Shown one piece after another: positions 8,897 to 49,761 of a stretch of 64,000 nucleotides of DNA; position 1 is the stretch's first letter; every line of letters begins with the position of its first letter. The notes beneath the pieces were generated by a model. That model did no database searches. It was not told where the DNA came from and saw only the letters and a program-made list of their open reading frames with translations. The position numbers and the translations under genes are program-made. Origin of the DNA: Desulfosudis oleivorans (GTDB lineage Bacteria > Desulfobacterota > Desulfobacteria > Desulfobacterales > SURF-7); NCBI GenBank assembly GCA_020723325.1, contig DYJD01000028.1:1-64000 (forward strand). Reading direction: 5' to 3'.

Positions 8897-9144
8897 AGGT
8901 AGAAAGATGCGGATTGTCTTGTCCGTGCCCGCTCACTAAGTTGTTTTTTTTCAACAGTTTTCCCGCCCCATTACAATCCATCCGGTTGGAAGCCCGAAAA
9001 GATAATTTCCTACGACACTAAGCCACGTTTTGCTTTTTTTTGCCTGATAAGCACCCTTGTGATATGAGGAAGATGCAAAAATGGCATCTGTCAGTCTCAA
9101 CACTTGATCTTTTCATCCTCAATACAATATTCGGTTGAGAAAGC

Positions 9145-12100
9145 ATGATTTTAAAAGGCTATCGATTCAAGCAGGAAATTTATAAAACCGATCGCAGCCG
9201 CTATTGGTCGGCGGTGCGGGAAGTGGATGGAAAGCCGGTAATAATCAAGACAGTGCTGGGATTAGGGTCGGCTTCCATTGCCCAGGCCTGGTTGCAACGG
9301 GAATTTGATCTTATCCGGAATCTGGCCGTCAAAGGGATTCCAAGACCTATCGGTCTGCAAACTTTTTCCGGTGGATCGGCACTGATCTATGAACAAATTG
9401 ACGGCCGACCTTTGCGCGAGCATACCCAGGGAAAAAGATTGGGCAACATGGGTTTTTTCCTGGACATGGCTATTTCCCTTGTTGAACTTTTGGATGAATT
9501 GCATGGCCGTCATTTGATCCATAAGGATATTCAACCGGATCATCTTTTTGTTCAGCCTGAGACCCGGCAGGTCTGGTTGACGGATTTTCGCTTTGCCACC
9601 TTACTGCCCAAGGAAACCCCGGCCTTGTCCGCTGCCGGAATGGTGGAAGGCACTTTGGCGTATGTGTCGCCGGAACAGACCGGTCGGACCAATCGCAACC
9701 TTGATTACCGCACGGATTTTTATTCACTGGGGGTCACTTTCTATCAGTTGTTGACCGGTCGGTTGCCTTTTGAAAGCCGGGACGCATTGGAATTGCTCCA
9801 TGCCCATCTGGCGATACAACCCCGGTCTCCGATGGAAGCGGAGCCGGGAATTCCAGAGGTAGTCTCCGAGCTGGTGCTGAAATTGCTTTCCAAAAACGCG
9901 GAAGAACGTTATCAGAGCGCAAAAGGATTATTGGAAGACCTTCGGCTGTGCCGGAAGAAGCTCACAAAGACCGGCAGCATACCGGCTTTCCGTTTGGGAG
10001 AACGGGATGTTCCCATGGAATTTCAGATCTCCCAAAAACTGTATGGACGGGAGCAGGAAGTCGCGCAATTGCTGGCGCTTTTTGAGGAGTCCGGACAGGG
10101 TCGCGTCCGAATGGCGGCCGTGGAAGGCCCCCCGGGGGTCGGCAAGACTTCCCTGGTCCTGGAAATATACAAAAACATCACCCGTAAGAAGGGTTATTTC
10201 ATAACCGGAAAATGCGATTCTTTTCATCAGGATATTCCCTACCGGGTGCTGGTGCATGCCTTTCAGGACCTGATCCGACAGGTTCTGACGGAAAGCAGTC
10301 TGCGGCTGGAAAACTGGAAGGAGAGGCTGCGCAACGCCATGGGGGAAAACGGCAGGGTTATCGTGGAAGTCATCCCGCAATTGGAGCTGATCATCGGCCC
10401 CCAGCCCGTGGTCACCCCCCTCGATCCGGTCAAATCCCAAAACCGCTTTAACCGTGTGTTCATTGATTTTATCCAGGCTTTTTGTCGCATAGAGAACCCT
10501 CTGGTCATTTTCCTAGATGATTTGCAATGGGTGGACGGCGCCAGTTTATATCTGATCGAGAACCTCCTCACCGATGCAAGCATGCATCATCTTTTTCTGA
10601 TCATTTCCTTTCGCGACAGCGAACTGCACCCGGCCCATCCATTGGCGCAGACTTTGCAAAAACTCAAACACCAGGGTTATGACTACAGCCGGATTCCCAT
10701 CAGCCCCTTGAACCTGGAGGATATCGGCCGGCTGTTGCAGGACTCCCTGCACGCTGATGGCAAAGATTTGCAACTCCTGGCCCGCCTGGTATGGCAGAAA
10801 ACCGGCGGGAACCCGTTTTTCGTCAACCAGTTCCTGATTCTTTTGCATCAGGAGCGGGGGATCCTGTTCAATACCAAACACCGGGAATGGGAATGGAATC
10901 TGCGCAAGATCCGGGGGCTGGATATCACCGAAAACGTGTTGGAACTACTGATGCGTCGTTTGGAGCGCCTGCCGGAATCCACCCGCGGCATTCTCACCAT
11001 GGCCGCCTGCATCGGCAGCTTTTTTGATATAAAGACCCTGCAAACCATCACCAATCAAAAGGCCCCGAGTCTGCTCCAGGCCCTGACGCCGGCCGTACAT
11101 GAAGATCTTCTGGTAACCATGGCCGGCTCCGTCCCTGGTGAAGCTGAATCAGAACCGGTAGTCGCTGCTGTGGAAACCTTTAAATTCCGCCATGACCGGG
11201 TGCGCCAGGCAGCCTACAGTTTGATTACCGATACGGAAAAAAAGGCGGTGCATTTGAAAATCGGGCGGCTGATGCTGGGCCGAATGCAGTCCGATCAGGT
11301 GGAAAATCAGCTTTTCAGTATTCTGCACCATTTCAATTTTGCTCATGAATTGATCCGCACCCAACCGGAACGTAAGAAAATCGCCGAGCTCAACCTTGCA
11401 GCCGGCATCAAGGCAAAACACTCCGCCGCCTTTGAGACGGCCCATGCCTATTTCACTGCCGGTATTCTTTTATTGGGTGCCGGAGGATGGCGGCGCTATT
11501 ATGACCTCATGTTGAAACTGCATCTGGAAGCCATGGAATCCGCCCGTTTATGCGGCAAAAATGCCATCATGGAAATTTGTTTTTCAGCGGTGAAGCAAAA
11601 TACCCGGACGGTTTTGGATCAGGTGGATGCTTATCAAAATAAGATCCAGGCCTTAATGGCGGAAAACCAGCCTCTTCAGGCCCTTAAAAATGCAAACGAC
11701 ATATTGAAGCAGATCGGCGTAATTCTTCACCCCTTGTCCTCAGAGGTGGATGTGGGGGGGCTTATCGACGAGACCCTTTTGGAAACAGAAGGCCGGGCGC
11801 CGGAGGATCTGGCGGAGCTGCAGGCCATGAAGGATCCTTTTCATCTGGCGGCCATGAAAATTCTTGGGTCCATATTGGCCTCGGCTTATTTGGGGGCGCC
11901 GGCCTTGTTCCCCATCATCGCTTGCCAGCAGGTGAAATTGTCCATTCAGCACGGCAATGCACCGGATTCGGCCATTGCCTACAGTGCCTTCGGTATTGTG
12001 CTGTGCGAATTCAAAAACAATATCGAAACCGGATACCGCTTCGGCCGGTTGGGCCTGATGCTCCTGAAACGTTTTGCCATGAAGGAACGGGAGGCCCGGG

Positions 12101-14994
12101 TCCATTTTCTGTTGGGCAGCATGGTGTTTCACTGGAAGATCCATTTTCGGGAAACTTTGGAACTACTGCTGGCCGGGTATTTCAGCGGTGTGGAAACCGG
12201 TGATTTTGAATTTGCCGGTTACAATGCCCTGGGTTTTACCGCTGTTTCCTTTTGCTCGGACCGATCCCTGATGGAGATCGAGCAAGATATGCGCCGCTAT
12301 GGGGAAGCCGTCAAGCGCTTGAAACAAATGCCTTCCAGCGGCTATATCGCCATTTTTCATCAGATGGTGCTGAATCTGCTTTGGAAAAGCCGGCCGGCGG
12401 AAGTTTTGCAGGGGGAGATCTATGACGAGCGGACCATGCTGCCCGTTCACCGGGAAAAATGTGATTTGCTGGCCGTATTCATTCATAGCTTTTGCAAGAT
12501 GATTCTTGGTTATTTTTTTGAGGATTATAGCGGGGCTTGGGAATGCGCTGAGGAGGCCGAAGCGTATATCAGCATGCCGCTGGGAACACCCCTGATTCCC
12601 TTGTACCATTTCTATGCTGCCCTGATCCGCCTGGCCCGGCATGTGTCCATGGGTAAGGCTTTACAGGAACAAAATTTGAAAAAAGTGGAATTCAGTTTAT
12701 CCCGTTTGAAAATATGGGGGCGGCATGCGCCCATGAACTATGAAAACAAATATCAACTGGTGGCGGCGGAATCCGCCGGCCTGCAAGGAATGGAAGCTGA
12801 GGCCATTCGCAGTTATGATGCGGCGATTCAATTTTCCCATGAAAACGGATTTGGCAGCGACGAAGCCCTGGCCAATGAGCTTGCCGCCAAATTCTGGTTG
12901 CGGCAAGGTAAGAATGAGTTCGCCCGTCTTTGCATGCAAAGAGCCTATACCTGTTATTCTACTTGGGGAGTCGTAACCAAAGCTGAGGCCCTGGTCAAGA
13001 AACACCCCCAATTGTTTTCTACACCCTGGCAGGCTGCGTTGATGTCCACCCCGGCCGGGGATTTTCGCAAGGATCACTGGAGCCAAGCCGGGCTGGACCT
13101 GGCCAGCTTCATGAAAGCCTCCCAGGCCATTTCCGGCGAAATCGAATTCCAGGGGTTGTTGCGTACCCTGATGAAAATCGTCATGGAAAACGCCGGCGCC
13201 GACCGGGGCTTTTTGCTGATGGAAGCGACCGGAGGCTTCGGGATTGCCGCCCAGGGAACTTTAGAAGGTCAGAAAATCGCTGTGGAGCTGGGCGAAATGA
13301 GCATGGAAGGCTCTGCACATATATCCATGCCGGTGGTTCACTATGTGGTCCGGACCAGGGAGCAGGTCGTTCTCAATCCACAGGAACAGGAGCGTTTTCA
13401 GGAAGGCGGTCACCTGCGGGGCCATAGACCCAAATCCTTGTTATGCGCCCCCATTCTGCATAAATCCAAACTGACCGGCATCCTGTATCTGGAAAACCAG
13501 CTGGTGGCGGATGCTTTTTCCGCCGGCCGTATGGAACTGCTCAAACTTTTATGTTCCCAGATCGCTATTTCCATTGAAAATACGCGATTGTTTGAAGAAC
13601 GCAAAAAAGCCGAGGAAAAATACCGTAGTATTTTTGAAAATGCCTTGGAAGGGATTTTCATTGCCACGCCTGAAGGAAAATTTTTGAGCGCCAATCCGGC
13701 CACGGCACAGATTTTGGGATACGCCACGCCTGAAGAACTGTTGGAAAAAGTGACGGATATAGTCAGTCAATTGGAGATCGCGGACCAAGCCAGAGTCGAC
13801 TTTTTCAATCTCATCGGGAAACAGCGATCCGTGGCGGATTTTGAAGTGCGCTGCCGGCGCAAACATGGCGATTATATCTGGGTTTCCTTGAATGCCAGGC
13901 CGATTTTCAACACCGGTGATCAAATCGATCTGTTTGAAGGGTTTATCGTGGATATCACCGCCCGCAAGGCTGCCACGGATGCCTTGCGGCGGCAGGAGGA
14001 ACAGTTGCGCAAGGAAAACATCCGCCTGCGCACGGAAATCAAGGATCGCTTCCGTTTCGGCCGCATAATCGGCAAAAGTACGGCCATGCAAGAGGTGTAT
14101 GGCTTAATCGCCCAAGCCGCCGCCACGGACGTGCCGGTGATCATTTATGGAGAATCGGGCACAGGCAAGGAATTGGTGGCCAAGGCCATCCATGAGCTAA
14201 GCGAGCGCAAGGAAGGCGATTTTGTGCCAGTCAACTGCGGCGCCATTCCCGGCACGCTTCTGGAAAGCGAGTTTTTCGGTTACAAAAAAGGGGCTTTTAC
14301 CGGCGCCCATGCTGATAAAAAAGGCTTGCTGGATCAAAGTCGCAACGGTACCCTGTTTTTAGACGAGGTTGGCGAGATCGATTTGTCTTTCCAGGTCAAG
14401 TTGTTGCGAGCCTTGGAGGACGGTAGCTACACGCCTCTGGGTGAACAGATTGTCAGGAAGACCAATGCCCGGATCATCACCGCCACCAACCGCGATCTCC
14501 AGCAGGTCCTGCGCACCGGCCGCATGCGCGAGGATTTTTTCTATCGTATCCATGTGATTCCCATTCACTTGCCCCCATTGCGAGAGCGAAAGGAGGACAT
14601 CCCGTTGTTGGTGGAGCACTTTTTAGAGACCAACAGTCGCGGCCGTAAAACACCGCCCCTGACCGGCGAAGCCATTGAAGGATTGCTGTCCCATGATTGG
14701 CCGGGCAATGTGCGCGAACTTCAAAATGTTTTGCAACGCTATTTGACCATAGGAAAAATGGATTTCCTGGCCAAATCCATTCCCAAAAGTACTTCCGAGG
14801 TTGTTCATGCCGAGGATGTTGAAAAGACCGGCCATGGTCAAATCCCATATCAGGAAGTCATGGAAAACATGGAAAAGAAACTCATTCTCAAAGCTCTGGA
14901 GCGGCACCATGGCAATCGCCGAAGAGCCGCGGCACATCTGGCCATTCCGCTGCGATCGTTTTACCGCAAAATGAAGCAATATCAGATTGTATGA
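9145..14994 (+). CDS. Giant kinase-ATPase-GAF-PAS sigma-54-dependent activator
   Basis: The 1949 residues comprise, in order: a Ser/Thr protein kinase-like domain (about 1-270); a large STAND/AAA-type ATPase (Walker A GPPGVGKTS near 327, Walker B VIFLDDLQW near 455); a helical TPR-like region (about 700-1250); GAF (about 1316-1484); PAS (about 1492-1615); a sigma-54 interaction AAA+ domain (about 1637-1870) with GESGTGKE and an intact GAFTGA loop; and a Fis-type helix-turn-helix (about 1915-1945). It should bind enhancer palindromes and activate RNA polymerase-sigma-54. The kinase catalytic loop reads HKDIQPDH with DFR in place of DFG, so kinase activity is doubtful. A perfect sigma-54 promoter begins 300 bases downstream, making the 15380-24107 operon its likely target. 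Confidence 0.9.
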   Translation: MILKGYRFKQEIYKTDRSRYWSAVREVDGKPVIIKTVLGLGSASIAQAWLQREFDLIRNLAVKGIPRPIGLQTFSGGSALIYEQIDGRPLREHTQGKRLGNMGFFLDMAISLVELLDELHGRHLIHKDIQPDHLFVQPETRQVWLTDFRFATLLPKETPALSAAGMVEGTLAYVSPEQTGRTNRNLDYRTDFYSLGVTFYQLLTGRLPFESRDALELLHAHLAIQPRSPMEAEPGIPEVVSELVLKLLSKNAEERYQSAKGLLEDLRLCRKKLTKTGSIPAFRLGERDVPMEFQISQKLYGREQEVAQLLALFEESGQGRVRMAAVEGPPGVGKTSLVLEIYKNITRKKGYFITGKCDSFHQDIPYRVLVHAFQDLIRQVLTESSLRLENWKERLRNAMGENGRVIVEVIPQLELIIGPQPVVTPLDPVKSQNRFNRVFIDFIQAFCRIENPLVIFLDDLQWVDGASLYLIENLLTDASMHHLFLIISFRDSELHPAHPLAQTLQKLKHQGYDYSRIPISPLNLEDIGRLLQDSLHADGKDLQLLARLVWQKTGGNPFFVNQFLILLHQERGILFNTKHREWEWNLRKIRGLDITENVLELLMRRLERLPESTRGILTMAACIGSFFDIKTLQTITNQKAPSLLQALTPAVHEDLLVTMAGSVPGEAESEPVVAAVETFKFRHDRVRQAAYSLITDTEKKAVHLKIGRLMLGRMQSDQVENQLFSILHHFNFAHELIRTQPERKKIAELNLAAGIKAKHSAAFETAHAYFTAGILLLGAGGWRRYYDLMLKLHLEAMESARLCGKNAIMEICFSAVKQNTRTVLDQVDAYQNKIQALMAENQPLQALKNANDILKQIGVILHPLSSEVDVGGLIDETLLETEGRAPEDLAELQAMKDPFHLAAMKILGSILASAYLGAPALFPIIACQQVKLSIQHGNAPDSAIAYSAFGIVLCEFKNNIETGYRFGRLGLMLLKRFAMKEREARVHFLLGSMVFHWKIHFRETLELLLAGYFSGVETGDFEFAGYNALGFTAVSFCSDRSLMEIEQDMRRYGEAVKRLKQMPSSGYIAIFHQMVLNLLWKSRPAEVLQGEIYDERTMLPVHREKCDLLAVFIHSFCKMILGYFFEDYSGAWECAEEAEAYISMPLGTPLIPLYHFYAALIRLARHVSMGKALQEQNLKKVEFSLSRLKIWGRHAPMNYENKYQLVAAESAGLQGMEAEAIRSYDAAIQFSHENGFGSDEALANELAAKFWLRQGKNEFARLCMQRAYTCYSTWGVVTKAEALVKKHPQLFSTPWQAALMSTPAGDFRKDHWSQAGLDLASFMKASQAISGEIEFQGLLRTLMKIVMENAGADRGFLLMEATGGFGIAAQGTLEGQKIAVELGEMSMEGSAHISMPVVHYVVRTREQVVLNPQEQERFQEGGHLRGHRPKSLLCAPILHKSKLTGILYLENQLVADAFSAGRMELLKLLCSQIAISIENTRLFEERKKAEEKYRSIFENALEGIFIATPEGKFLSANPATAQILGYATPEELLEKVTDIVSQLEIADQARVDFFNLIGKQRSVADFEVRCRRKHGDYIWVSLNARPIFNTGDQIDLFEGFIVDITARKAATDALRRQEEQLRKENIRLRTEIKDRFRFGRIIGKSTAMQEVYGLIAQAAATDVPVIIYGESGTGKELVAKAIHELSERKEGDFVPVNCGAIPGTLLESEFFGYKKGAFTGAHADKKGLLDQSRNGTLFLDEVGEIDLSFQVKLLRALEDGSYTPLGEQIVRKTNARIITATNRDLQQVLRTGRMREDFFYRIHVIPIHLPPLRERKEDIPLLVEHFLETNSRGRKTPPLTGEAIEGLLSHDWPGNVRELQNVLQRYLTIGKMDFLAKSIPKSTSEVVHAEDVEKTGHGQIPYQEVMENMEKKLILKALERHHGNRRRAAAHLAIPLRSFYRKMKQYQIV

Positions 14995-15096: not shown

Positions 15097-15111
15097 ATGC
15101 CGATATGGCAT
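15097..15111. promoter_or_regulatory. Palindromic activator-site candidate 1
   Basis: ATGCC-GATAT-GGCAT is a perfect inverted repeat centred at 15104, about 200 bases upstream of the sigma-54 promoter. It matches the site at 15185 in its outer arms, so both are likely to be bound by one dimeric regulator. Confidence 0.6.
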
Positions 15112-15117
15112 CTTTTG

Positions 15118-15132
15118 TTGACAAATTGGCAC
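15118..15132. promoter_or_regulatory. Palindromic activator-site candidate 2 (imperfect)
   Basis: TGaCAAATTGgCA, centred at 15125, pairs except at one position and shares its core CAAATTG with the site at 15185. It lies 21 bases (two helical turns) from site 1. A sigma-70-like TTGACA-N18-TATGAT overlaps it (15118-15147). Confidence 0.45.
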
Positions 15133-15184
15133 TATACTCAATATGATAAAAATATAATAAAAAATAAATCGAAAAGCAGAAATA

Positions 15185-15199
15185 ATGCCAAATTGGCAT
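15185..15199. promoter_or_regulatory. Palindromic activator-site candidate 3
   Basis: ATGCCAAATTGGCAT is a perfect palindrome centred at 15192, about 105 bases upstream of the -24 element, a usual distance for sigma-54 enhancer sites. Its arms match site 1 and its core matches site 2. Confidence 0.65.
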
Positions 15200-15297
15200 A
15201 TAATTATATCCCACCCACCTGGGTTCTCCAAAGTCAGCCATTCCATGCCAGTTAAATAATTATTATATTTCAATAAGATAAAAATAAATATGCATTA

Positions 15298-15313
15298 TGG
15301 CACACCTGTTGCT
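15298..15313 (+). promoter_or_regulatory. Sigma-54 promoter of the reductase operon
   Basis: TGGCAC (15298-15303), five bases, TTGCT (15309-15313) matches the -24/-12 consensus TGGCAC-N5-TTGCW. Transcription would begin near 15324, about 55 bases before the start codon at 15380. Confidence 0.85.
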
Positions 15314-15379
15314 GAATGCCTTCGTCAGGTGCAGTTGTGACTTATCAATCATGGAACCACCAGTACGAAGGAGAGGGAG

Positions 15380-16747
15380 ATGAGAACATCGTCAGGGAAG
15401 GAATTGGATGCCATTGTTGTGGGTAGCGGTCCGGGCGGGGCCACGGTGGCTAGGGAACTGGCTTTGGCAGGCCGGAAGGTTTTGATTCTGGAATGGGGAG
15501 ATAATGATCCGGTCAAAGGCACCTTGACCCAAACCATTCCCCGGGCTTTTGTGCCCGGCAAAAGCATGTTGATCACCGGCCAGGCCCTGGGCATGGTGCG
15601 GGCCATCACCACCGGCGGCAGTTCCCTGCTTTTTTGCGCCACAGCCTTTGATCCGCCGGTGGATATGCTGAAAAAATACGGCATCGATGTCACTCAAGAA
15701 GTGGCTGAAGTACGCAAGGAGGTGCCCAACGCGCCCTTGACCGATGAGCTGATGAGCCCGGCCGGGGTGCGTTTTGAGGAAAGCGCATTGGATCTCGGCT
15801 ACGATTGCAGACGTCTCAACAAATTCATCTATCAGAACAAATGCAAGCCGGATTGCCAGCTTTGCCTTTACGGCTGCCCCTATGACGCCAAATGGAACGC
15901 CCGCAATTTCGTGAATGAGGCCTTGGAAAACGGGGCCAAGATGATCAATTTCGCCAAAGTAGACAAGGTGATCTTTGAGAATCGCAAGGCTGTGGGAGTG
16001 GAATACAAGCAGGGCCAGGACTACTACCGCGCCTTTGCCTCCAAGATCATCATCGCCGCGGGCGGCATTGGTTCGCCGGTGATTTTAAACAACAGCGGCA
16101 TTCACGGGGTGGGCTATGATTTTTTCTTTGATCCGCTCATTTATGTATTTGGAAAAATACGGGATGTGAAGAGCGGGCGGGGCTTGTGCATGAGTGCCGG
16201 CATTCATTTTCCGGAAGACGGTATTGTCATGACCGATTTCAATCTGCCCCAGATGCTGAAAATGGTGTTTGATGTGGAAGTCTTCAGGTTCAAACAAGTC
16301 TTTTCCTATTCCAATGTGGTGCCCATCATGATCAAGGTCCGGGACTGTCTGTCCGGCCGGATCATCAACGACAAGTTGATCTGGAAAACCTTGTCCAAGG
16401 CCGACAAACAGAAACTGGACAAAGGTGCGGAGCACGCCAAGCGGATCCTCACCCATGCCGGCGCCGCGGAAGTATATCGTTCCTGGGTGCTGGCGGCCCA
16501 TCCCGGCGGCACGGTGAAAATCGGCGAACATGTGGACGCCGATCTGAAAACCAAATTCGACAATCTGTATGTCTGCGATTGTTCAGTGGTGCCGGAAGAA
16601 TGGGGCCTGCCGCCCACCATGACCCTTTTGAGTCTGGGGAAACGTCTGGCCAAACATCTGCTGGGAGTGAAAGGGAACGTGACTGAAAAGGAAACCTTTG
16701 CCGGCAAGGTTCGGGAATTGTCCCGCCAGGAAGAAAAGGCGGCTTGA
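15380..16747 (+). CDS. GMC-like FAD oxidoreductase with Cys cluster
   Basis: This 455-residue flavoprotein has an N-terminal FAD-binding fold (VVGSGPGGATVARELA near residue 12, then VLILEWG) and a GMC-type C-terminal domain with AAHPGGT and the FAD-contacting PPTMTLLSLGKRLA. Cys155, 159, 162 and 166 form CX3CX2CX3CP, like the CxxC-x-GC motif of long-chain alcohol oxidases/dehydrogenases and possibly a metal or Fe-S site. A GGAGAGGGAG ribosome site precedes the ATG. It is the first gene behind the sigma-54 promoter. Expected chemistry is oxidation of an alcohol or reduction of a C=C/C=O group. Its place before the reductase genes suggests action on the same substrate or product, which is inference. 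Confidence 0.8.
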   Translation: MRTSSGKELDAIVVGSGPGGATVARELALAGRKVLILEWGDNDPVKGTLTQTIPRAFVPGKSMLITGQALGMVRAITTGGSSLLFCATAFDPPVDMLKKYGIDVTQEVAEVRKEVPNAPLTDELMSPAGVRFEESALDLGYDCRRLNKFIYQNKCKPDCQLCLYGCPYDAKWNARNFVNEALENGAKMINFAKVDKVIFENRKAVGVEYKQGQDYYRAFASKIIIAAGGIGSPVILNNSGIHGVGYDFFFDPLIYVFGKIRDVKSGRGLCMSAGIHFPEDGIVMTDFNLPQMLKMVFDVEVFRFKQVFSYSNVVPIMIKVRDCLSGRIINDKLIWKTLSKADKQKLDKGAEHAKRILTHAGAAEVYRSWVLAAHPGGTVKIGEHVDADLKTKFDNLYVCDCSVVPEEWGLPPTMTLLSLGKRLAKHLLGVKGNVTEKETFAGKVRELSRQEEKAA

Positions 16748-16786
16748 AGCATTCGGCGAATCTCAATAGAGGGGAGGAAAAACGTG

Positions 16787-18274
16787 ATGAACAATACCCA
16801 ATCGTTAAGCAGTGCGCTGCCGGGCATTCAAAAAATCACCCACAGCCGCAACGGCGGCGGGGATGATCTGAATGCCCTGTTGCACGACTTGCTGGCCACC
16901 CGGGAAGTGCGGCGTTTGCTGATCACCCTGGTACCCGAATTCCTGAACGTCTGGGCTGGGGGCAGTTTTTGGAAGCAGACGATTTCCAAGCTGGCGGGGC
17001 ATGTGCTGGGCCGGCAGCTGTCACGACCGGAGGATGCGCTGGAAAACCAGGAAATCCGGCAATTGCTGGAAAGCCGAGAATTCGTTCAAAGTCTGGCCGG
17101 TCATATTCCGGATTGGCTGGCCTTGATCAAGGATGCCGCTGCCGCCTTCGGGCGCACCCTTTCAGACCTTCCGGCTGAAAAGCAAAAAGCCCTGTTGGAA
17201 AAGCTCATGGGGGAAATCAATCAGGGTCATAGCGGCGATTTGCTCACCAGCCTAGCCCGCATGGTGAACCAGGTGCATCGGGCTGATCCCCTATTTTTCG
17301 CCCGGGTTTTGGCCCCGGGCTTTCAAAAATGGGTTGAGGCCGTTGATTTCGGGGAACTCAAGGAGGCATTGGAAAATGCCGGTCCGGATATCCGCGCCCT
17401 GGTGACCATGGCCAACGAGACCATCTGGGAATACCCGTCCAAGGTCGTGCTGCTGCTTTCCCTGCTGCCTTCCCTGGTGAACGTGATCTCCGCTGCCGGG
17501 CAGATCTCCCTTGCCAGGCTGAATGAGGTGCCGCCGGATATGCTCGCCGACATCGTTCTGGCCTTTATAAAGGAAATTGATGCCAAAGCTTTGGCCCGCC
17601 TGGGGGATGAGTTGAGCGAGGTGATCCGTAAAATTCACACCGGCAGCGCCCTTTTGGGGGAACCCGGTGCGCCGCAAATGCCCAAGGTATTCAACGAGAC
17701 CATCGGCCGAATGATGGGTGAATTGGATCCTGCCTTGTTCTGGAAAGCCCGGATCGCCCTGGCGGAGTTGCAGTCCGTCGGTGAACAGGCCTTGGCCGCA
17801 GCCGCCCAGGGACGGCCTGAATTTCGACGGGAAGGGAGTCTGCGTTCACCGGAACTCATGAATATCCGTCTGCGCAACCGGCTTCACAAGCTGAGCTTGT
17901 GGGAAAACCTGGAGGATGAGGAATTGGCCAATGCCCTGGCCCGGCAATTGTCCGGGTATGATGCCCAGGCTGCAGCCGAAGTGTGCAACCAGTGGATGCG
18001 CCTGGCCCTGCGCCTGTATTACCGCAAGCCGGGTGTGTGCGCTGAATTTCTGCGCCAGTTCCTGGGAGCTTTGGACGTGGATGCCCTGGCAAAAACCACC
18101 CGGGGAGTATTCACCGGCATGGGCGCCGATCTCCGGCCGGCGGCCCGCAGCGTGGTACCGGACCTGGTGACCTTTGTCTGCAATACCCTGCAACCTTTGG
18201 ATGACGAGCATGAAGACCGCGCGGCCCGGGCCCGGGAGGCTGTCCGCGCCCTATTGACGGTCGAGGAGGTATAG
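16787..18274 (+). CDS. Unknown all-helical protein of the reductase operon
   Basis: The 495-residue protein has no signal peptide, no clear membrane helix and no cysteine cluster. Composition and periodicity indicate an almost entirely alpha-helical fold with Leu/Ala-rich amphipathic segments. I recognise no family. A strong GGGGAGGA lies 8 bases before ATG 16787 (a GTG at 16784 is the alternative). It sits between the flavoprotein and the BcrC-like subunit, 3 bases from the latter (stop 18274, start 18278), so it is certainly co-expressed with them. A scaffold or assembly role is possible but nothing in the sequence proves it. Confidence 0.7.
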   Translation: MNNTQSLSSALPGIQKITHSRNGGGDDLNALLHDLLATREVRRLLITLVPEFLNVWAGGSFWKQTISKLAGHVLGRQLSRPEDALENQEIRQLLESREFVQSLAGHIPDWLALIKDAAAAFGRTLSDLPAEKQKALLEKLMGEINQGHSGDLLTSLARMVNQVHRADPLFFARVLAPGFQKWVEAVDFGELKEALENAGPDIRALVTMANETIWEYPSKVVLLLSLLPSLVNVISAAGQISLARLNEVPPDMLADIVLAFIKEIDAKALARLGDELSEVIRKIHTGSALLGEPGAPQMPKVFNETIGRMMGELDPALFWKARIALAELQSVGEQALAAAAQGRPEFRREGSLRSPELMNIRLRNRLHKLSLWENLEDEELANALARQLSGYDAQAAAEVCNQWMRLALRLYYRKPGVCAEFLRQFLGALDVDALAKTTRGVFTGMGADLRPAARSVVPDLVTFVCNTLQPLDDEHEDRAARAREAVRALLTVEEV

Positions 18275-18277
18275 AAC

Positions 18278-19435
18278 ATGGATGCTTTTTACGCTGCCGC
18301 AACCCAAATCAAAACCCAGTCCATTCTGGATTGGAAAGCCCAAGGCAAGCAAGTGGTAGGCTACACCTGTTCCTATGTGCCGGCGGAGATTTTTCATGCC
18401 GCGGATCTGCTGCCGGTGCGGCTCAGGGGCATTGAAACCGACGGCATGGAAATCGGCGACGCTTATTACGGCCCCTTTATCTGCAGCTTTCCCAAATGCA
18501 TTTTACAATTGGCCGGGAAAGGCATGTTCGATTTCCTGGACGGGGTTGTGATCACACCCGGTTGCGACGCCATGCGCAGGCTGGATGAATGCTGGCGCAA
18601 GGCCGGGGAGGATTATCCCGGGATTGTGCCGGCCTATTTCTACTATTTTGATGTGCCCCACAAGGCCGAAGCCCATGGTCTGCGCTGGTTTGTCACGGAA
18701 ATCCGCAACCTGATCCACAGTTTGGAAATCCATTTCAACAAGCGCATCACCGCTGAGAAACTGCGGGCGGCCATAGCCCATTACAATCAGGGCCGGCGTT
18801 TGCTGCAAACCCTGGAGGACTTGCGGGCCCAAGGCCGGGTACCGGTCAGCGGTACCGAAGTCTTTGCCGCCACCGTGGCCGGTACGGTCATGCCCCGGGA
18901 AGAATTCACCCGAAGCCTGGAGAAATGGATCAAAACCCTAAAAAAACGACCAACCCCCACCAGCAATCGCAAAAGGCTTATGCTGGTGGGCAGCATCAGC
19001 GACGACATCGATCTCGTGGAACTCATCGAAAAGAACACCAACGCCCTGGTGGTGGCGGAGAATCTCTGTTTCGGCGTGCGTTACGAGGGTAATGAAATCC
19101 CCGAACAGGGTGATCCGGTGGAAGCCCTGGCCGAACATTATCTCGGACGTTCCATATGTCCGCGTATGTACGGCAAATACAAGGAGCGCCTCGGTTACCT
19201 CAAAGAAAAAATCCGCAAAGCCGGCGTGGAAGGCGTGGTCATGCAGAACATCCGTTTCTGCGACCTGCACGGTGCGGAAAATGCCTTGTTCGAGCGGGAT
19301 CTGGAAGCCGAGGGCATCCCCTGTCTGCGCATCGAGCGGGAGTACGGCCCTTTGATTGAGACCGGGCGGATGAAACTCAGGATCAATGCATTTCTGGAAA
19401 GGATATCAATAAAGGAGAAAAACCATGCGGCCTGA
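18278..19435 (+). CDS. Benzoyl-CoA reductase/2-hydroxyacyl-CoA dehydratase, BcrC-like subunit
   Basis: The 385-residue D-component-type subunit carries the family opening GYTCSYVPAEIFHAADLLPVR, where the Cys commonly ligates the active-site [4Fe-4S] cluster. Near the end, QNIRFCDLHGAEN and LRIEREYG match the C-terminal region of BcrC/BzdN/HgdB. Paired with the next gene it would form the catalytic half of an ATP-dependent aryl-CoA reductase or a 2-hydroxyacyl-CoA dehydratase, receiving single electrons from the activator. Two different activator genes follow, which favours the class I benzoyl-CoA reductase arrangement over a dehydratase. It overlaps the next gene by 11 bases. Substrate not established. 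Confidence 0.85.
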   Translation: MDAFYAAATQIKTQSILDWKAQGKQVVGYTCSYVPAEIFHAADLLPVRLRGIETDGMEIGDAYYGPFICSFPKCILQLAGKGMFDFLDGVVITPGCDAMRRLDECWRKAGEDYPGIVPAYFYYFDVPHKAEAHGLRWFVTEIRNLIHSLEIHFNKRITAEKLRAAIAHYNQGRRLLQTLEDLRAQGRVPVSGTEVFAATVAGTVMPREEFTRSLEKWIKTLKKRPTPTSNRKRLMLVGSISDDIDLVELIEKNTNALVVAENLCFGVRYEGNEIPEQGDPVEALAEHYLGRSICPRMYGKYKERLGYLKEKIRKAGVEGVVMQNIRFCDLHGAENALFERDLEAEGIPCLRIEREYGPLIETGRMKLRINAFLERISIKEKNHAA

Positions 19436-20825
19436 AATCAAGGAATACAATTATGATTGGATGATGGCCGGCGTCATGAACATGGCCGGCAAGGTGCCCA
19501 ACGGAACGGCCAAGGAAACGGCTTTGACCTACCGCTATGTGCCGTATTTCAGCAAGGTGGCCAGAACCTTCATTGAATCCGGCGAAGTGGGCGTCCAGAT
19601 CCTGAATCTGTTCGCCCGTTATTACGGCAATGTGCTCGGTGCCCATGCCGCCGGCAAAAAGATCGCCCTTACCACGTTTTGTTTTTCACCGGCCATTCTG
19701 TATGCCATGGATGTGGTGCCCATCTGCACGGAGATATTCACCGCCTTGGGGGGCATTGTCTGGCGCCGGGGCATGTTCGACTACCTGGACCATGCCTGCC
19801 AGATAGGACTGCCCGAAACGTCCTGCTCCTCCCAACGGGGGGCCATGGGCGCTTATCTCGCAGGTCTGGGGGAGTCCTTTGACTTTGTCATCTGCGACAC
19901 CCCCGGCGTCTGCGACACCAACGCCAATGCTTTTGCCTTTGCCGCCGCCTATCTGGACAAACCTTTTTTCCAGCTCAATTACCCCCAGAACATCGGCGAC
20001 CACCGCACCGAGGGGTATCACTTGGAAGACTACCAAGCCATGGTTCGTTTCGTGGAAGAACAAACCGGTAAAAAAATGGATTACGAGCGTCTGGCAGAAG
20101 TTCTGGCGGAAGTGGAGAAGCAAGACGCCCTGATTGCGGATCTAGAGGATCTGCATACCCTGACGCCCACGCCGATTCCGCCTTTGTTCAATCTGGCGCT
20201 GTATGCCGGCAAGTTCACCTTTTCCGGCAACCCGGAATATACTGTTCTTTTGGAAAAAATGGCGGCGACAGCCAAGCAGTTGGCGGCGGCCGGTTTGTCC
20301 GGTTTAAAAACCGGCCGGGAAAAATTGCGGGCCTGCATGTTCTATATCGATCACTACACCCTGAACGTGAACTTCTGGAACTGGCTCAGTGAAAACGGCG
20401 TGGCCCATATGGGCAGTATTCTCAGCCATCATTTCCGGGACAACCTGGATTATGCCAAGGCCCTCAAGGGTTCGGCTTACGGTGTGGATACCTCATCGCC
20501 GGACGCCATGCTCAATAGCGTGGCCCAGATGAATGCCCGGCTGCCCATGGTACGTTCCGTGCGGGGGCCCTATGATCAGCCCAATATGTGGCTGGAGGAG
20601 ACCCTGGTGCTGGCCAAACATTTCGGCGCCGAATGCATGATCTACAACGGCACTCCCGGCTGCCGGAACACCTGGGCCAATGTCAAGCTAATCGCCCGGG
20701 ACCTGGAGAGACACGGCTACCCAGTGCACATCATGTACGACGACGCCTTTGACGACCGCGTGGAATCCTGGGAAGCCACCCGTGAACGCCTGGAAGAATT
20801 TTTTACCATAAGGGGGTTACTATGA
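19425..20825 (+). CDS. Benzoyl-CoA reductase/2-hydroxyacyl-CoA dehydratase, BcrB-like subunit
   Basis: The 466-residue second subunit of the catalytic half is close to the usual length of BcrB/BzdO. Family features are TTFCFSPAILYAMDVVPI with its conserved Cys near residue 87, RRGMFDYLDHACQ, SCSSQRGAMGAYL, and the C-terminal NGTPGCRNTWA segment. A GGAGAAA ribosome site lies in the end of the preceding gene. Its stop overlaps the start of the first activator by 4 bases (ATGA type), so the subunits are translationally coupled. It probably binds the substrate CoA thioester together with the BcrC-like subunit, by analogy with the family. Confidence 0.85.
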   Translation: MRPEIKEYNYDWMMAGVMNMAGKVPNGTAKETALTYRYVPYFSKVARTFIESGEVGVQILNLFARYYGNVLGAHAAGKKIALTTFCFSPAILYAMDVVPICTEIFTALGGIVWRRGMFDYLDHACQIGLPETSCSSQRGAMGAYLAGLGESFDFVICDTPGVCDTNANAFAFAAAYLDKPFFQLNYPQNIGDHRTEGYHLEDYQAMVRFVEEQTGKKMDYERLAEVLAEVEKQDALIADLEDLHTLTPTPIPPLFNLALYAGKFTFSGNPEYTVLLEKMAATAKQLAAAGLSGLKTGREKLRACMFYIDHYTLNVNFWNWLSENGVAHMGSILSHHFRDNLDYAKALKGSAYGVDTSSPDAMLNSVAQMNARLPMVRSVRGPYDQPNMWLEETLVLAKHFGAECMIYNGTPGCRNTWANVKLIARDLERHGYPVHIMYDDAFDDRVESWEATRERLEEFFTIRGLL

Positions 20826-21625
20826 GCATTGTCGCCGGATGTGATGTCGGCTCGCTGACATCCAAAGCCGTCATCCTGAAAGACCATCGAATTATCGCAA
20901 GTTGTATCGTCAAGTCCAAACCGCGTCCGATGGATTCGGCCGCGGCGGTCATGGAAGGGGTCCTTAGCGCCGCCGGGCTTTCCATGAACGTGGTGGAGCA
21001 CTGCACCGGGACCGGCTACGGCCGGGAGCAGATCCCCTTTGTGCAGGAGATCGTTTCGGAGATTTCTTGTCACGGCAAAGGGGCGCGCTGGATGCTGTCT
21101 TCGGCCCGGACCGTGATCGACATCGGCGGTCAGGACTGCAAGACCATGAAGATCGATGCTGAGGGTAACGTGATCAAGTTCACGGCCAATGACAAATGCG
21201 CTTCCGGCACCGGTCGCTTTCTGGAGGTCATGGCCCGGGTGCTGGGGGTGGAAATCGATGAACTGGGCCGGATGACCGACCGGGCCAAAACACCGGTGAC
21301 CTTGGCCTCCACCTGCACGGTGTGGGCCCAGGCGGATGTAATCAAATACATCAATTCCGGTTTGGCCGTGGAGGATATCGGCGCCGGCATCAACACGGCC
21401 ATGGCCCAGCGGGTGGCCATCCTGGTGAACGCCCTTACACCCGAGGGTGATATTTTCATGACCGGCGGCGTGGCCAAGAACACCGGGGTGGTGAGCACCC
21501 TTGAAAAACTCATCGGCCGCAAAATCAAAAAAACCGTGAAGGCTGATCCGCAAATCGCCGGTGCATTGGGGGCTGCCTTGATTTCACTTGAAAAAATCAA
21601 TGGAAAAGGGAGGAGCACAATATGA
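20822..21625 (+). CDS. ATP-dependent activator/reductase component, BcrA/BcrD-like (1)
   Basis: This 267-residue ASKHA-fold ATPase (BadF/BadG/BcrA/BcrD family) uses ATP hydrolysis to drive low-potential electrons onto the catalytic subunits. Visible features are the first phosphate loop GCDVGSLTSKAVIL, GTGYGREQIPF, IDIGGQDCK, and cluster ligands Cys126 (NDKCASGTGRF) and Cys165 (STCTVW), which match the two bridging cysteines of HgdC-type activators; the second phosphate loop is MTGGVAKN. The subunit is of the short (about 265 residue) type. It overlaps both neighbours by 4 bases. With the next gene it should form a heterodimer holding one [4Fe-4S] cluster between subunits. Confidence 0.88.
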   Translation: MSIVAGCDVGSLTSKAVILKDHRIIASCIVKSKPRPMDSAAAVMEGVLSAAGLSMNVVEHCTGTGYGREQIPFVQEIVSEISCHGKGARWMLSSARTVIDIGGQDCKTMKIDAEGNVIKFTANDKCASGTGRFLEVMARVLGVEIDELGRMTDRAKTPVTLASTCTVWAQADVIKYINSGLAVEDIGAGINTAMAQRVAILVNALTPEGDIFMTGGVAKNTGVVSTLEKLIGRKIKKTVKADPQIAGALGAALISLEKINGKGRSTI

Positions 21626-22407
21626 TCACAGCAGGCTGCGATATCGGTTCCCTGACCGCCAAGGCGGTCATCCTGGAGAACGACCGGATCTTGTCCCAGG
21701 CAGTTATGCGCGCCAAGACCAAGCCGGCGGAATCCGCTGCGGAAGTCATGAACCTGGCCCTTGCCAAAGCGGGCTTTGATCTGACGGGCGTTGATCATGT
21801 GACCGGCACGGGTTACGGCCGGGAGCAGATTCCCTTTGTGAGCAGCGTGGAATCGGAAATTTCCTGCCATGCCCGGGCCGCTGCCCATCTCATGCCCTCA
21901 GTGCGCATGGTCATCGACATCGGGGGCCAGGATGCCAAGGCCACACGGCTGGATGAAAACGGAAAAGTTGTGCGCTATCTGTATAACGATAAATGCGCCT
22001 CTGGTACAGGACGTTTTCTTGAGGTCATGGCCGAGGCCCTGGAGATTCCCTTGGAAGAACTGGGTCGGGCTGGTTCCCAGGCCAAGGAAAAGCTCACCAT
22101 CTCCAACCAGTGTGTTATTTTCGCGGAAACCGAAGTGGTCTCCCTGGTGAACGAAGGCAAGGATCCGGCCGATATCATCCAGGCCCTGCACCAGGCCCTG
22201 GCCAGACGGGTGGCGGCCCTGGCCAAGAGCATCGAGGTCCGGGAGGATGTGGTCATGACCGGCGGAGTGGCCAAGAACCAGGGAGTGTTTGCGGCCCTGG
22301 AGGAAGCCCTCAGAGTGCGCATCAAGATCCTGGACAACGTGGATCCCCAGATCATGGGGGCTTTGGGCGCCGCGTTGTATGCCCAAGAGAAAGCACGCCG
22401 GTCCTGA
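21622..22407 (+). CDS. ATP-dependent activator/reductase component, BcrA/BcrD-like (2)
   Basis: The 261-residue paralogue of the preceding gene retains all motifs: GCDIGSLTAKAVILE, GTGYGREQIPF, IDIGGQDAK, Cys125 (NDKCASGTGRF), Cys164 (NQCVIF) and MTGGVAKN. Two distinct activators side by side are characteristic of class I benzoyl-CoA reductases (BcrA/BcrD, BzdP/BzdQ); dehydratases and HgdC systems normally have one homodimeric activator. This is the main ground for reading the operon as an aryl-CoA reductase. About 110 bases separate it from the next gene, and a partial copy of the dispersed palindrome lies there. Confidence 0.88.
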   Translation: MITAGCDIGSLTAKAVILENDRILSQAVMRAKTKPAESAAEVMNLALAKAGFDLTGVDHVTGTGYGREQIPFVSSVESEISCHARAAAHLMPSVRMVIDIGGQDAKATRLDENGKVVRYLYNDKCASGTGRFLEVMAEALEIPLEELGRAGSQAKEKLTISNQCVIFAETEVVSLVNEGKDPADIIQALHQALARRVAALAKSIEVREDVVMTGGVAKNQGVFAALEEALRVRIKILDNVDPQIMGALGAALYAQEKARRS

Positions 22408-22480
22408 CTTGTTTCCGGGGTCGGTATCGAAAGCAATTTCAAACGATTTTGTTCATCAGGATTCTTACAACTCTCCCATG

Positions 22481-22502
22481 GTGGGAGCGGCTTCCAGCCG
22501 CG
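22481..22502 (+). repeat. Dispersed palindrome, partial copy A
   Basis: GTGGGAGCGGCTTCCAGCCGCG is the core of the repeat family described at 24465, 49785, 58223 and 59308, present here without its outer arms. It ends 18 bases before the start codon at 22520, inside the reductase operon, so its hairpin would form in the mRNA. A short GGGGTCGGTATCG fragment of another repeat type is at about 22418. Confidence 0.75.
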
Positions 22503-22519
22503 CTTGGAAGGAGAAGCAA

Positions 22520-23257
22520 ATGGGACTTTTCGATCATCAGATCCGGGCCATCCGCGGTTTTCTGGATCAGAAGCGAGGGGAGGGAAAGGTGCGGGAAATC
22601 TTTCAAGTCCGGCCGATTCCATGGCCGACTTCCAACGGCGGCAATCTGGTGTTGGGCCAGGATACGGCCGTGGAACTGGGGCATCCCCAGGATGCTTCCG
22701 CTTCTTTCTTGCTGTGGCACAATGAACCCAGGGAAGTGAAAAACGGCCGCATCACCCTGGTGGGTCCGGATTTACCGGAAATAAAAAGCGGGCGCGCGTC
22801 CTTTGCCAGAATTGTGCTGGTGGCCGGAAATGATTTTGATGAGCACAACAGTTTTGACCGCTGGCGGGAGATGGAATTGCTGCGCTATGACATCAAACTT
22901 TCAGGCTATATGATGCGGGGAGTTTCCCAATATCAGCGGGAATGGAGCCGGGTTTCCAGGGCAGCCATGGACAACGGTTTCTCCCTGCAGGTGCTGGGCG
23001 GCGCTCTGATGGCCGAGTTTGCCGCATTGCCTTATATCCAAGCTGTGGAAGTGGTTTTCATCACTTCCGGCCGCGAGGATGTGCACGTGGTCCAGGCAGT
23101 GGCCGGCGCAGCGGGTAGAATCATCGGCGCCATGAACAAGATGGCTCAGGAATTGTCATTTGACTGCGATGGGTGTGAGTATACGTCGGTGTGCAATGAT
23201 GTAGCCGAGCTGCGGGCCATGCGCAACACCGCCCATGGAAGGAGGCGGCATGGGTAA
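22520..23257 (+). CDS. Orphan acetyl-CoA synthase beta-subunit middle-domain protein
   Basis: This 245-residue protein resembles the start of the CdhC/AcsB family alignment. GRITLVGPDLPEIKSG corresponds to the GKI-VVGPDIDDM-EG region; the following segment with ERWRE-like, YMMRGVSQYQREWSRVS and GFSLQVLGGALMAEF parallels the family's GVMHIGQRDIIWIRIS and GL-KHIGEVLHAKF. The C terminus has Cys216, Cys219 and Cys225 where the A-cluster domain would begin, but that domain is absent. The protein is therefore a free-standing middle domain. GGAAGGAG precedes ATG 22520. It overlaps the CooC-like gene by 8 bases, the pairing seen in CODH/ACS loci. Role in this operon unknown; CoA-ester binding or electron/metal handling are possibilities. 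Confidence 0.7.
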   Translation: MGLFDHQIRAIRGFLDQKRGEGKVREIFQVRPIPWPTSNGGNLVLGQDTAVELGHPQDASASFLLWHNEPREVKNGRITLVGPDLPEIKSGRASFARIVLVAGNDFDEHNSFDRWREMELLRYDIKLSGYMMRGVSQYQREWSRVSRAAMDNGFSLQVLGGALMAEFAALPYIQAVEVVFITSGREDVHVVQAVAGAAGRIIGAMNKMAQELSFDCDGCEYTSVCNDVAELRAMRNTAHGRRRHG

Positions 23258-24107
23258 ATTGAGGGCCGGTAAAACCACCATCATCGCCCTGTGCGGTAAG
23301 GGCGGCGTGGGCAAAACTTCCATCAGTGCAACCATTGTAAAACTCTTGGCAGAAAATCCTGAAAGCAAAGTTCTGGCCATCGACGCCGACCCGGCCGTAG
23401 GGCTTGCCACGGCCCTGGGCATCACTGTGCGCAAAACCGTGGACGATATCCGCAATGATTTGATAAGGCGCGTGGAGATGGGGCAGGGCGGCGGCAGGGC
23501 GGAAATGGTTTCCCAGTTGGACTATGAAATGTTAACCGCCTTGGAAGAGTACCGGAATCTGGCCTTTATTGCCATCGGCCGGCCGGAAAAAGACGGCTGT
23601 TACTGCCAGGTGAACCATATTCTCAAAGATTTGATCGCGGCCCTGGCGGAAAATTTCGACTACGTGGTCATTGACGGTGAAGCCGGCATTGAACAGGTCA
23701 ATCGCCGGGTGATGGAGCAGGTCAGCCACCTGATTCTGGTTTCCGATGCATCTGCCAAGGGCCTGAATGTGGTGAAAACCATCCAAGCGGTGGCGGCGTC
23801 GGCCATTCAATTTGAAAAAGCCGGGCTGATCCTGAACCGGCTGCGGGGGGAGCAGGAAAGGGAAAAACTATCCATACCGACGAACCTCAACTGTCTGGGA
23901 TGGATTCCGGAAGACGATGCCGTACGGACTTTTGACATGGAAGGGCGCAGCCTCCTCACCCTTCCGGACTGCCGGGCACTCAGGGCTGTGAAAAGCTGCA
24001 TGGCGTTATTGGGCCTGCCGAAATCCATTATTTTAAATCCATCCGTTTTACCGGGATCAAGCGGTGGCCCAACAGGTCCACGGCGATTTGCGACTGCTCC
24101 AGAATAA
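23250..24107 (+). CDS. CooC/AcsF-like nickel-insertion-type ATPase
   Basis: The roughly 285-residue MinD/CooC-type P-loop ATPase has a deviant Walker A (CGKGGVGKTS), LAIDADPAVGLA, a GCYCQVN segment giving the Cys117-x-Cys119 pair found in CooC metal-binding dimers, and VVIDGEAGIEQ as Walker B. CooC and AcsF mature the nickel sites of CO dehydrogenase and acetyl-CoA synthase. ATG 23250 is selected because GGAAGGAGG lies just before it; an in-frame ATG at 23235 would contain that site. The last gene of the operon, its tail overlaps the convergent protease-like gene by 80 bases. No CO dehydrogenase catalytic subunit is encoded in the window. Confidence 0.82.
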   Translation: MGKLRAGKTTIIALCGKGGVGKTSISATIVKLLAENPESKVLAIDADPAVGLATALGITVRKTVDDIRNDLIRRVEMGQGGGRAEMVSQLDYEMLTALEEYRNLAFIAIGRPEKDGCYCQVNHILKDLIAALAENFDYVVIDGEAGIEQVNRRVMEQVSHLILVSDASAKGLNVVKTIQAVAASAIQFEKAGLILNRLRGEQEREKLSIPTNLNCLGWIPEDDAVRTFDMEGRSLLTLPDCRALRAVKSCMALLGLPKSIILNPSVLPGSSGGPTGPRRFATAPE

Positions 24108-49156: not shown

Positions 49157-49761
49157 GGCGCACCTTTCTTCAAAGATTTAATCCAAAAAACCATTGGTTT
49201 GGGCGTTTCCGCAATTTCGTCGATTTCCTGCCAAGGGAAATGGCAGATTAAATCATCGCGCTTGGTGAACCCCTGTTTTTCCCAGTACCCATCCAAGGAT
49301 TTATAACCTTCCGGTTTGCGGGGATGGTGATCCGGCCGAACCACAGCGCAGAACGTCACCCAATCGAACCGGCCCAGCCTTTTTGCATAATTCTCTCTTT
49401 CCTTGAAGAAAAAGACATAATGACCTTTTCCCCGATATTCTTTTAAGAGCACCGATTCCCCAAAATAAAAGATACGCCTGGGATCAAAGCCCTTGTCAAT
49501 GAAAGGTTTCTGAAATCCCGGATCGGCATTTTCCATGGGAATACCGGTGGACGCGCCCACCACCCTATCCCCGTCAAAAGCGATCACGACAATGCTTTCC
49601 GGTGAATCCGTATAAGCTTTCAGATATTTTTCTTCATATTCCAGCGTTCCGTCATACAGATAGGGGAATTCCCGGAATACGGTTATGCGCAATTGGGCCA
49701 GATCCCGTATATAAATTTTGGCCTCATTCCCGATATGCGGGCTGATTTTCAGATTTTCCAT
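49153..49761 (-). CDS. GNAT-family N-acetyltransferase
   Basis: The roughly 202-residue acetyl-CoA-dependent acyltransferase contains RDLAQLRITVFREFPYLYDG near the N terminus, VVIAFDGDRVVGASTGIP, the acetyl-CoA loop LLKEYRGKGHYVFFF and YWEKQGFTKRDD. GGAG lies about 6 bases before ATG 49761. A longer open frame upstream joins repeat sequence and the broken methyltransferase and is not part of this protein. The stop overlaps the nitrilase start (ATGA). The amino substrate is unknown. Confidence 0.82.
   Translation of the reverse strand: MENLKISPHIGNEAKIYIRDLAQLRITVFREFPYLYDGTLEYEEKYLKAYTDSPESIVVIAFDGDRVVGASTGIPMENADPGFQKPFIDKGFDPRRIFYFGESVLLKEYRGKGHYVFFFKERENYAKRLGRFDWVTFCAVVRPDHHPRKPEGYKSLDGYWEKQGFTKRDDLICHFPWQEIDEIAETPKPMVFWIKSLKKGAP

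Follow-up and report, generated by a model that had tools for sequence, protein, structure and literature searches.

The systems described that come closest to the locus reported here have the following features, as given in excerpts of the papers cited. At the norVW promoter of Escherichia coli, three enhancer sites of NorR are essential for activation and serve as a scaffold for its oligomer (PMC2941729). The sigma-54 regulome of Desulfovibrio vulgaris contains one-component activators with upstream activating sites, and the biggest fraction of its promoters lies within 100 nt of the closest activating site (PMC4641369). In the BmoR/P-BMO system an alcohol-responsive sigma-54 activator has its upstream site 193 bp from the promoter, and a palindromic hairpin can be removed there without loss of activation (PMC8899819). 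Dual kinases of the HstK type combine a Ser/Thr kinase, GAF and a histidine kinase (PMC1262709).

Here we analyze a region in the genome of Desulfosudis oleivorans (G000 below) which lies between a very large activator gene and an operon headed by a GMC oxidoreductase gene. The window is the whole stretch of DNA analyzed, 64,000 nucleotides long. To judge from sequence comparison, this region is very probably an enhancer with a sigma-54 promoter, dedicated to the operon at 15380-24107 and controlled by the activator encoded at 9145-14994. The features are collected in Table 1.

Table 1. Features of the activator gene, the control region and the target operon (window positions unless residues are given)
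Feature	Position	Strand	Basis or remark
Fourth operator-like site, weaker, ATGCAAAAATGGCAT	9073-9087	.	57 bp before the activator ATG; third-best cross-genus matrix hit in the window
Activator gene, 1949 aa	9145-14994	+	Pfam
Pkinase (kinase-like)	activator residues 22-258		Pfam
AAA_16	activator residues 298-486		Pfam
GAF	activator residues 1336-1477		Pfam
PAS	activator residues 1502-1606		Pfam
Sigma54_activat	activator residues 1641-1808		Pfam; its lid domain was matched too
HTH_8 (Fis-type HTH)	activator residues 1906-1946		Pfam, E 6.5e-12
Site 1 (distal palindrome), ATGCCGATATGGCAT	15097-15111, centre 15104	.	read directly; triad scan
Sigma-70-like TTGACA-N18-TATGAT	15118-15147	+	11/12 consensus matches; first hexamer overlaps site 2
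Site 2 (palindrome), TGACAAATTGGCA	15119-15131, centre 15125	.	21 bp from site 1; spacing kept in orthologous loci
Site 3 (proximal palindrome), ATGCCAAATTGGCAT	15185-15199, centre 15192	.	67 bp from site 2
Sigma-54 promoter (-24/-12), TGGCACACCTGTTGCT	15298-15313	+	112 bp from site 3; GG and GC correctly spaced
GMC-family oxidoreductase, first gene	15380-16747	+	Pfam
496 aa protein	16784-18274	+	no Pfam or NCBIfam match; kept in the operon at 31-50% identity
HGD-D family protein	18278-19435	+	Pfam; BcrC/double-cubane-like but below the cut-offs of those models
Second HGD-D family protein	19425-20825	+	Pfam
BcrAD_BadFG ATPase/activator	20822-21625	+	Pfam
Second BcrAD_BadFG ATPase/activator	21622-22407	+	Pfam
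CdhC (acetyl-CoA synthase beta)-like protein, 252 aa	22499-23257	+	start codon chosen by us
MinD/CooC-like ATPase, last gene of the conserved operon	23235-24107	+	CooC likeness is our reading

The control region

A preliminary description of this region had named three related palindromes and a near-perfect TGGCAC-N5-TTGCT promoter, and the letters of all four are present at the positions in Table 1. It had also placed the end of the activator gene about 100 bases before the palindromes, which agrees with a stop codon ending at 14994, 102 bp ahead of the first of them. The step of 21 bp between sites 1 and 2 bears out its view that these two share one helix face; site 3, about 6.4 turns beyond site 2, is off that face on straight DNA. 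Transcription from the sigma-54 promoter is predicted to start near 15324, and an rpoN gene was found in the genome.

Three matches to TGCC-N5-GGCA with at most one mismatch lie in the 385 bp intergenic region, versus an average of 0.20 in 500 dinucleotide shuffles, in which three were never reached. The -24/-12 element shows no excess by itself: with at most one mismatch it occurs three times in the 64 kb window, versus 3.07 expected, so that it is position and conservation which mark out the local promoter.

The 7.2 Mb genome holds 11 exact copies of ATGCC-N5-GGCAT, and this control region accounts for two of these. Of the other nine, eight fall inside stop-to-stop frames with a length of 252 codons or above; the last, close to a contig end, sits in a frame of 111, against 123 codons for the chance frame over the two local sites. 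Exact TGGCAC-N5-TTGCW occurs 17 times, the local promoter included. The search for similar palindromes near other promoters of this type, proposed in the preliminary description, found no motif of comparable score in the 350 bp ahead of any of the 16 remaining exact matches. The best score there was 5.8 versus 24.3, 21.0 and 14.8 locally, and only the low scores elsewhere are informative since the scoring matrix included the local sites. The circuit thus looks dedicated and not part of a wider regulon. A genome-wide regulon was also sought with TGCCRAWNYGGCA at up to one mismatch and rejected, as 236 forward matches versus 234 for the backward control give no enrichment. The stretch C110:221773-222196 of the same genome has an exact TGCC-N5-GGCA (at 221773) some 401 bp ahead of an exact -24/-12, beyond the 350 bp scoring range.

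A weight matrix made from six sites of G114, G299 and G342, which belong to one genus, was scanned over the whole window. Positions 15185, 15097 and 9073 ranked first to third (scores 23.1, 20.3 and 16.5), the fourth rank (12.4) fell at 49515, and site 2 was sixth. The six sites had been chosen by likeness to the local ones, which makes the test only partly independent; what it adds is the similar score of 9073, beyond the activator gene, and the lack of any other place in 64 kb that scores alike.

The activator protein

The activator and its surroundings show sequence features of a sigma-54 enhancer-binding protein: Walker A, Walker B and the GAFTGA loop in an AAA+ domain, a C-terminal Fis-type HTH, a putative cognate -24/-12, rpoN in the genome, and conserved upstream sites, with the exceptions of the 3' side of the G061 ortholog (absent) and the G105 contig (none seen). 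Walker A, Walker B and GAFTGA are kept in the six orthologs that reach the Sigma54_activat domain. Residues 700-1320 have no Pfam match at all; TPR repeats, considered for the middle of the protein, were dropped for this reason.

In the N-terminal kinase-like domain the ATP-site Lys and the catalytic Asp are present, and the catalytic-loop Asn and DFG are altered (HKDIQPDH, DFR). These last two vary among orthologs, some of which keep Asn or DFG. The domain (9145-9990 in the window, and its counterparts in orthologs) may be a pseudokinase in some members. Among the open-access literature matches listed, we recognised no description of a kinase and sigma-54 activator fusion.

The ortholog search covered 389 genomes of the order (E <= 1e-300, two candidates scored per genome). 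Seven of them gave an activator match that was full-length or extended through the HTH: G000 itself, G114 (53% identity), G299 (53%, its 5' part off the contig), G061, G212 and G315 (45% each), and G105 (44%). G342 carries a 5' fragment whose class is not assignable. The remaining matches in the order stop at about residues 1485-1657 and presumably carry another output module. The same search in a phylum-wide sample of 395 genomes gave no further match through the HTH, and family searches for G114 (36 genomes), G315 (30) and G212 (8) gave no orthologs beyond those named. Within the sampled genomes the fusion protein looks rare and scattered. At locus L076 (G105:C53), the contig end beside the activator start appears by eye to fold back on itself, possibly through misassembly, and hides the upstream flank.

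The target operon

Besides the GMC oxidoreductase, the operon encodes parts that resemble benzoyl-CoA reductase and a protein like acetyl-CoA synthase (Table 1), and we recognised no description of it among the open-access literature matches listed. The same operon type was seen in other Desulfobacterota and in one Spirochaetota MAG (loci L059, L060, L063 and L067). A second copy lies in the genome of D. oleivorans itself (L071, C110:280000-299900), with 36-68% identity gene by gene. It follows a gene for a GntR/FCD-type regulator, and no palindrome or -24/-12 was found in that stretch at up to one mismatch. One genome has, for one operon type, two kinds of control.

Among 41 loci with a GMC homolog, exact palindrome and exact -24/-12 are found together in the G000 and G114 loci. 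The other 39 (37 distinct, two contigs being present twice) have neither in mismatch-free form in the upstream sequence read, some of which was short or extrapolated. Since most of these loci lack the activator and the triad of sites, the operon can do without them.

Conservation of the triad

Is the arrangement kept beside the orthologs of the activator? In G114 the activator precedes the same operon, and in G299 it precedes the first gene of this operon, where the contig ends. Both intergenic regions contain three TGCC-N5-GGCA sites, each with at most one mismatch, and an exact TGGCAC-N5-TTGCT. The G315 triad is found 5' of the activator and faces a divergent aldehyde dehydrogenase gene; the sites have the form TGCC-N6-GGCA, and the -24/-12, TGGCCTTCTTATTGCT, has two mismatches. 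In G212 the 3' neighbour of the activator encodes a fused aldehyde dehydrogenase/Fe-alcohol dehydrogenase. Two good N6 sites were detected here, only modestly beyond shuffles (0.024 of 500), together with a distal site with three mismatches inside the coding end of the activator and a -24/-12, TGGTTCAATTATTGCT, with two mismatches.

The steps from site 1 to site 2, to site 3 and to the promoter are 21/67/112 bp in G000, 20/68/101 in G114, 20/67/101 in G299, 21/65/102 in G315 and 21/64/112 in G212. The promoter distances (101, 101, 102, 112 and 112 bp) form two groups about one helical turn apart. The poorest site is site 2 in G000, site 1 in G299, and sites 1 and 3 in G114; its variation by genome indicates that the positions are kept while single sites decay. 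When spacers of N2-N12 were scanned, the matches clustered at N5 in three genomes (G000, G114, G299) and at N6 in the other two (G212, G315).

The triad thus stands beside five of the seven orthologs that reach the HTH, in one of the five weakly. The 3' side of the G061 gene has an exact -24/-12, TGGCACACCTTTTGCT, a counterpart of the G000 promoter like those of G114 and G299, and no TGCC-N5-GGCA or TGCC-N6-GGCA site in that flank; GGGGCA/TGCCCC palindromes seen by eye near this promoter fit no triad and were dropped. For G105, no triad was found in the 445 bp of 3' flank remaining on its short contig.

In 1.06 Mb of loci, a triad with at most four mismatches and a -24/-12 within 95-119 bp was found at these five places only; locus L103 has one 4-mismatch triad, without promoter. 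Locally shuffled sequence (8.5 Mb, both strands) gave two triads, none with a promoter. These loci overlap and had been fetched for activator, operon or motifs, so they are not a random sample, and the spacing ranges were chosen after the loci had been seen; the figures describe rarity and are not p-values. A degenerate pattern of a site-2 half, site 3 and promoter at ranged distances was found in two of the 389 genomes, G000 and G299, both times beside the activator, and never in the backward control; G114, G315 and G212 cannot match it because of their mismatches or N6 sites.

The local pairing of activator and target, which the preliminary description had thought likely, gains support from this phylogenetic footprinting, with triad and -24/-12 beside the orthologs in G114, G299, G315 and G212; the site-less promoter of the G061 ortholog speaks against it. 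The two target operons and the divergent gene of G315 indicate that the arrangement goes with the target instead of being a remnant of a single sequence. No description of this conserved three-site geometry was found among the open-access literature matches listed.

The form of the site also varies with the recognition helix. The helix IPLRSFYRK goes with N5 sites (G000, G114, G299), and M(A/S)RRTFFRK with N6 sites (G212, G315). G105 has a helix of the latter type and no readable target, and G061, with IDRKTLYRK, has its exact promoter with neither form of site. This suggests that recognition helix and site form change together; the helix groups also track protein relatedness, so the co-variation is suggestive and not proof.

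The site upstream of the activator gene

In G000 the site at 9073 is the only clear one in the sequence ahead of the activator; a second match with one mismatch, TGCCTGATAAGCA at 9041-9053, is off the triad spacing. In G114 and G342 (loci L070 and L111) the corresponding sequence contains GGCA-N7-TGCC and an exact site 69 or 70 bp further. GGCA-N7-TGCC represents the inner halves of two sites 20 bp apart, and so the triad geometry is present upstream of the activator in both genomes. The counts of upstream sites alone are within those of shuffles (0.174 of 500 for G114, 0.090 for G342).

These positions suggest that the activator would be autoregulated through the 9073-9087 site. Autorepression is only suggested, because the adjoining sigma-70-like elements score weakly (8/12 in G000, 9/12 in G114, below 8 for the G342 pair). 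A conserved sigma-70 promoter beside this site was considered and dropped on these low scores.

Alternative explanations

The preliminary description had also pointed to the sigma-70-like TTGACA-N18-TATGAT, which is present in the sequence as claimed. The operon could be read mainly from this element, the palindromes then being operators of a repressor, either the neighbouring protein or another one. We regard this as unlikely. The 11 of 12 consensus matches and the overlap of the first hexamer with site 2 fit such a reading, but promoter-like matches are common in the region (three found versus 2.0 expected). Moreover, site 2 of G114 and G299 is an exact TGCC-N5-GGCA without TTGACA at the matching place, a promoter scan of both found no promoter-like match over site 2 reading towards the operon, and what is conserved there instead is the exact -24/-12. 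It is hardly credible that the palindromes are instead stem-loops which terminate transcription of the activator gene. Local stems have six pairs with three G-C pairs, and site 3 qualifies on the minus strand only, even though a simple scan gave sites 1 and 3 as terminator-like (two found versus 0.3 expected) and the stem of the exact G114 site has 11 pairs. Terminators do not typically come in three copies at set distances from a promoter, and the G315 triad sits 5' of the activator, ahead of the target gene.

Could the palindromes be bound by a regulator other than the neighbouring activator? Sites of a Fis-type HTH are not predictable from protein sequence with the methods used, and the G061 and G105 orthologs are without sites in the sequence read. 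On the other hand, sites flank the activator gene on both sides, at 9073 here and as triad-like sets upstream in G114 and G342; they accompany the activator to a different operon in G212 and G315; their form changes with its recognition helix; and no exact site was found in the sequence read at the 39 other GMC-homolog loci. A foreign regulator is therefore very improbable in our view. An enhancer of the neighbouring activator with its own sigma-54 promoter is the reading which we prefer.

Proposed mechanism and signal

Under the preferred reading, dimers of the Fis-type domain would bind the three palindromes, whose consensus is approximately ATGCCRAWNYGGCAT. Two dimers, spaced by 20-21 bp, would share a helix face, the third would follow 64-68 bp closer to the promoter, and the three together would nucleate the AAA+ ring. 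DNA looping could then carry the ring to the sigma-54 RNA polymerase at the -24/-12, 101 to 112 bp on, and the polymerase at 15298-15313 would be opened. Because site 3 is off the face of sites 1 and 2 on straight DNA, the DNA may have to bend or wrap between sites 2 and 3. For a bend we searched with the IHF consensus, WATCAANNNNTTR. It is present exactly in G212 only and with one mismatch in G114, G299, G315 and G061; the G000 and G342 regions have none.

In G061, the promoter without sites is followed by genes for a Zn-alcohol dehydrogenase and then an aldehyde:ferredoxin oxidoreductase. Taken with the GMC oxidoreductase and with the aldehyde dehydrogenase and Fe-alcohol dehydrogenase of the other loci, this pair indicates that the signal may be an alcohol or aldehyde. 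The first genes suggest that an alcohol, an aldehyde or a product of one would be read by the kinase-like, AAA_16, GAF and PAS parts of the activator. The regulator may point to the substrate of the operon.

A broader interpretation is offered tentatively, as a possibility somewhat short of an even chance. Fusions of kinase-like, AAA_16, GAF, PAS, sigma-54 and Fis parts may constitute an enhancer-binding protein class of their own, whose nucleoprotein architecture is fixed: a pair of dimers spaced by 20-21 bp, another dimer after a further 64-68 bp, and then the promoter, 101-102 or 112 bp away. This architecture would be kept while specificity (N5 to N6) and target operon change, and the shape of the enhancer complex would thus be selected independently of sequence. 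The same geometry upstream of the activator in a second genus would make the circuit self-limiting.

Comparison with known systems

A very large, uncharacterised sensor-activator fusion now gains a concrete candidate target and DNA site. The five loci provide a comparison set: the enhancer geometry is nearly the same in all, the sites come in two forms, and the target operons are two. They make two questions testable: the assembly of one AAA+ ring by three dimers on non-equivalent helix faces, and the shift of a Fis-type HTH from an odd to an even palindrome.

The N-terminal kinase-like domain is shared with the HstK-type dual kinases, as far as the excerpt describes them. The first 267 residues of the activator are 45-46% identical to cyanobacterial proteins (best 5 of 502 plasmid records), three of these best five being annotated as ATP-binding sensor histidine kinase. 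In contrast to HstK-type proteins, the output of the activator is a sigma-54 AAA+ domain with a Fis HTH, and no histidine kinase is among the 23 Pfam families matched. BmoR is comparable by description only, as a sigma-54 activator with an upstream site; the alcohol response in the excerpt is that of BmoR. On the side of differences from the D. vulgaris regulome, neither 'TGCC' nor 'serine' appears in the main text of PMC4641369.

NorR, in the description available in the excerpt, has GAF, AAA+ and a C-terminal DNA-binding domain, and three enhancer sites upstream of a sigma-54 promoter, as the local system does by its sequence. Unlike NorR, the activator has additional kinase-like, AAA_16 and PAS parts, and it scores 289.3 bits against the NorR model, whose cut-off is 476. 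The local sites are TGCC-N5-GGCA. Most likely the local system works like the three sites of NorR without being a NorR member. By its sequence it looks like an enhancer of known type that is dedicated to one operon, distinguished by its unusual activator and by the conservation of its three-site geometry.
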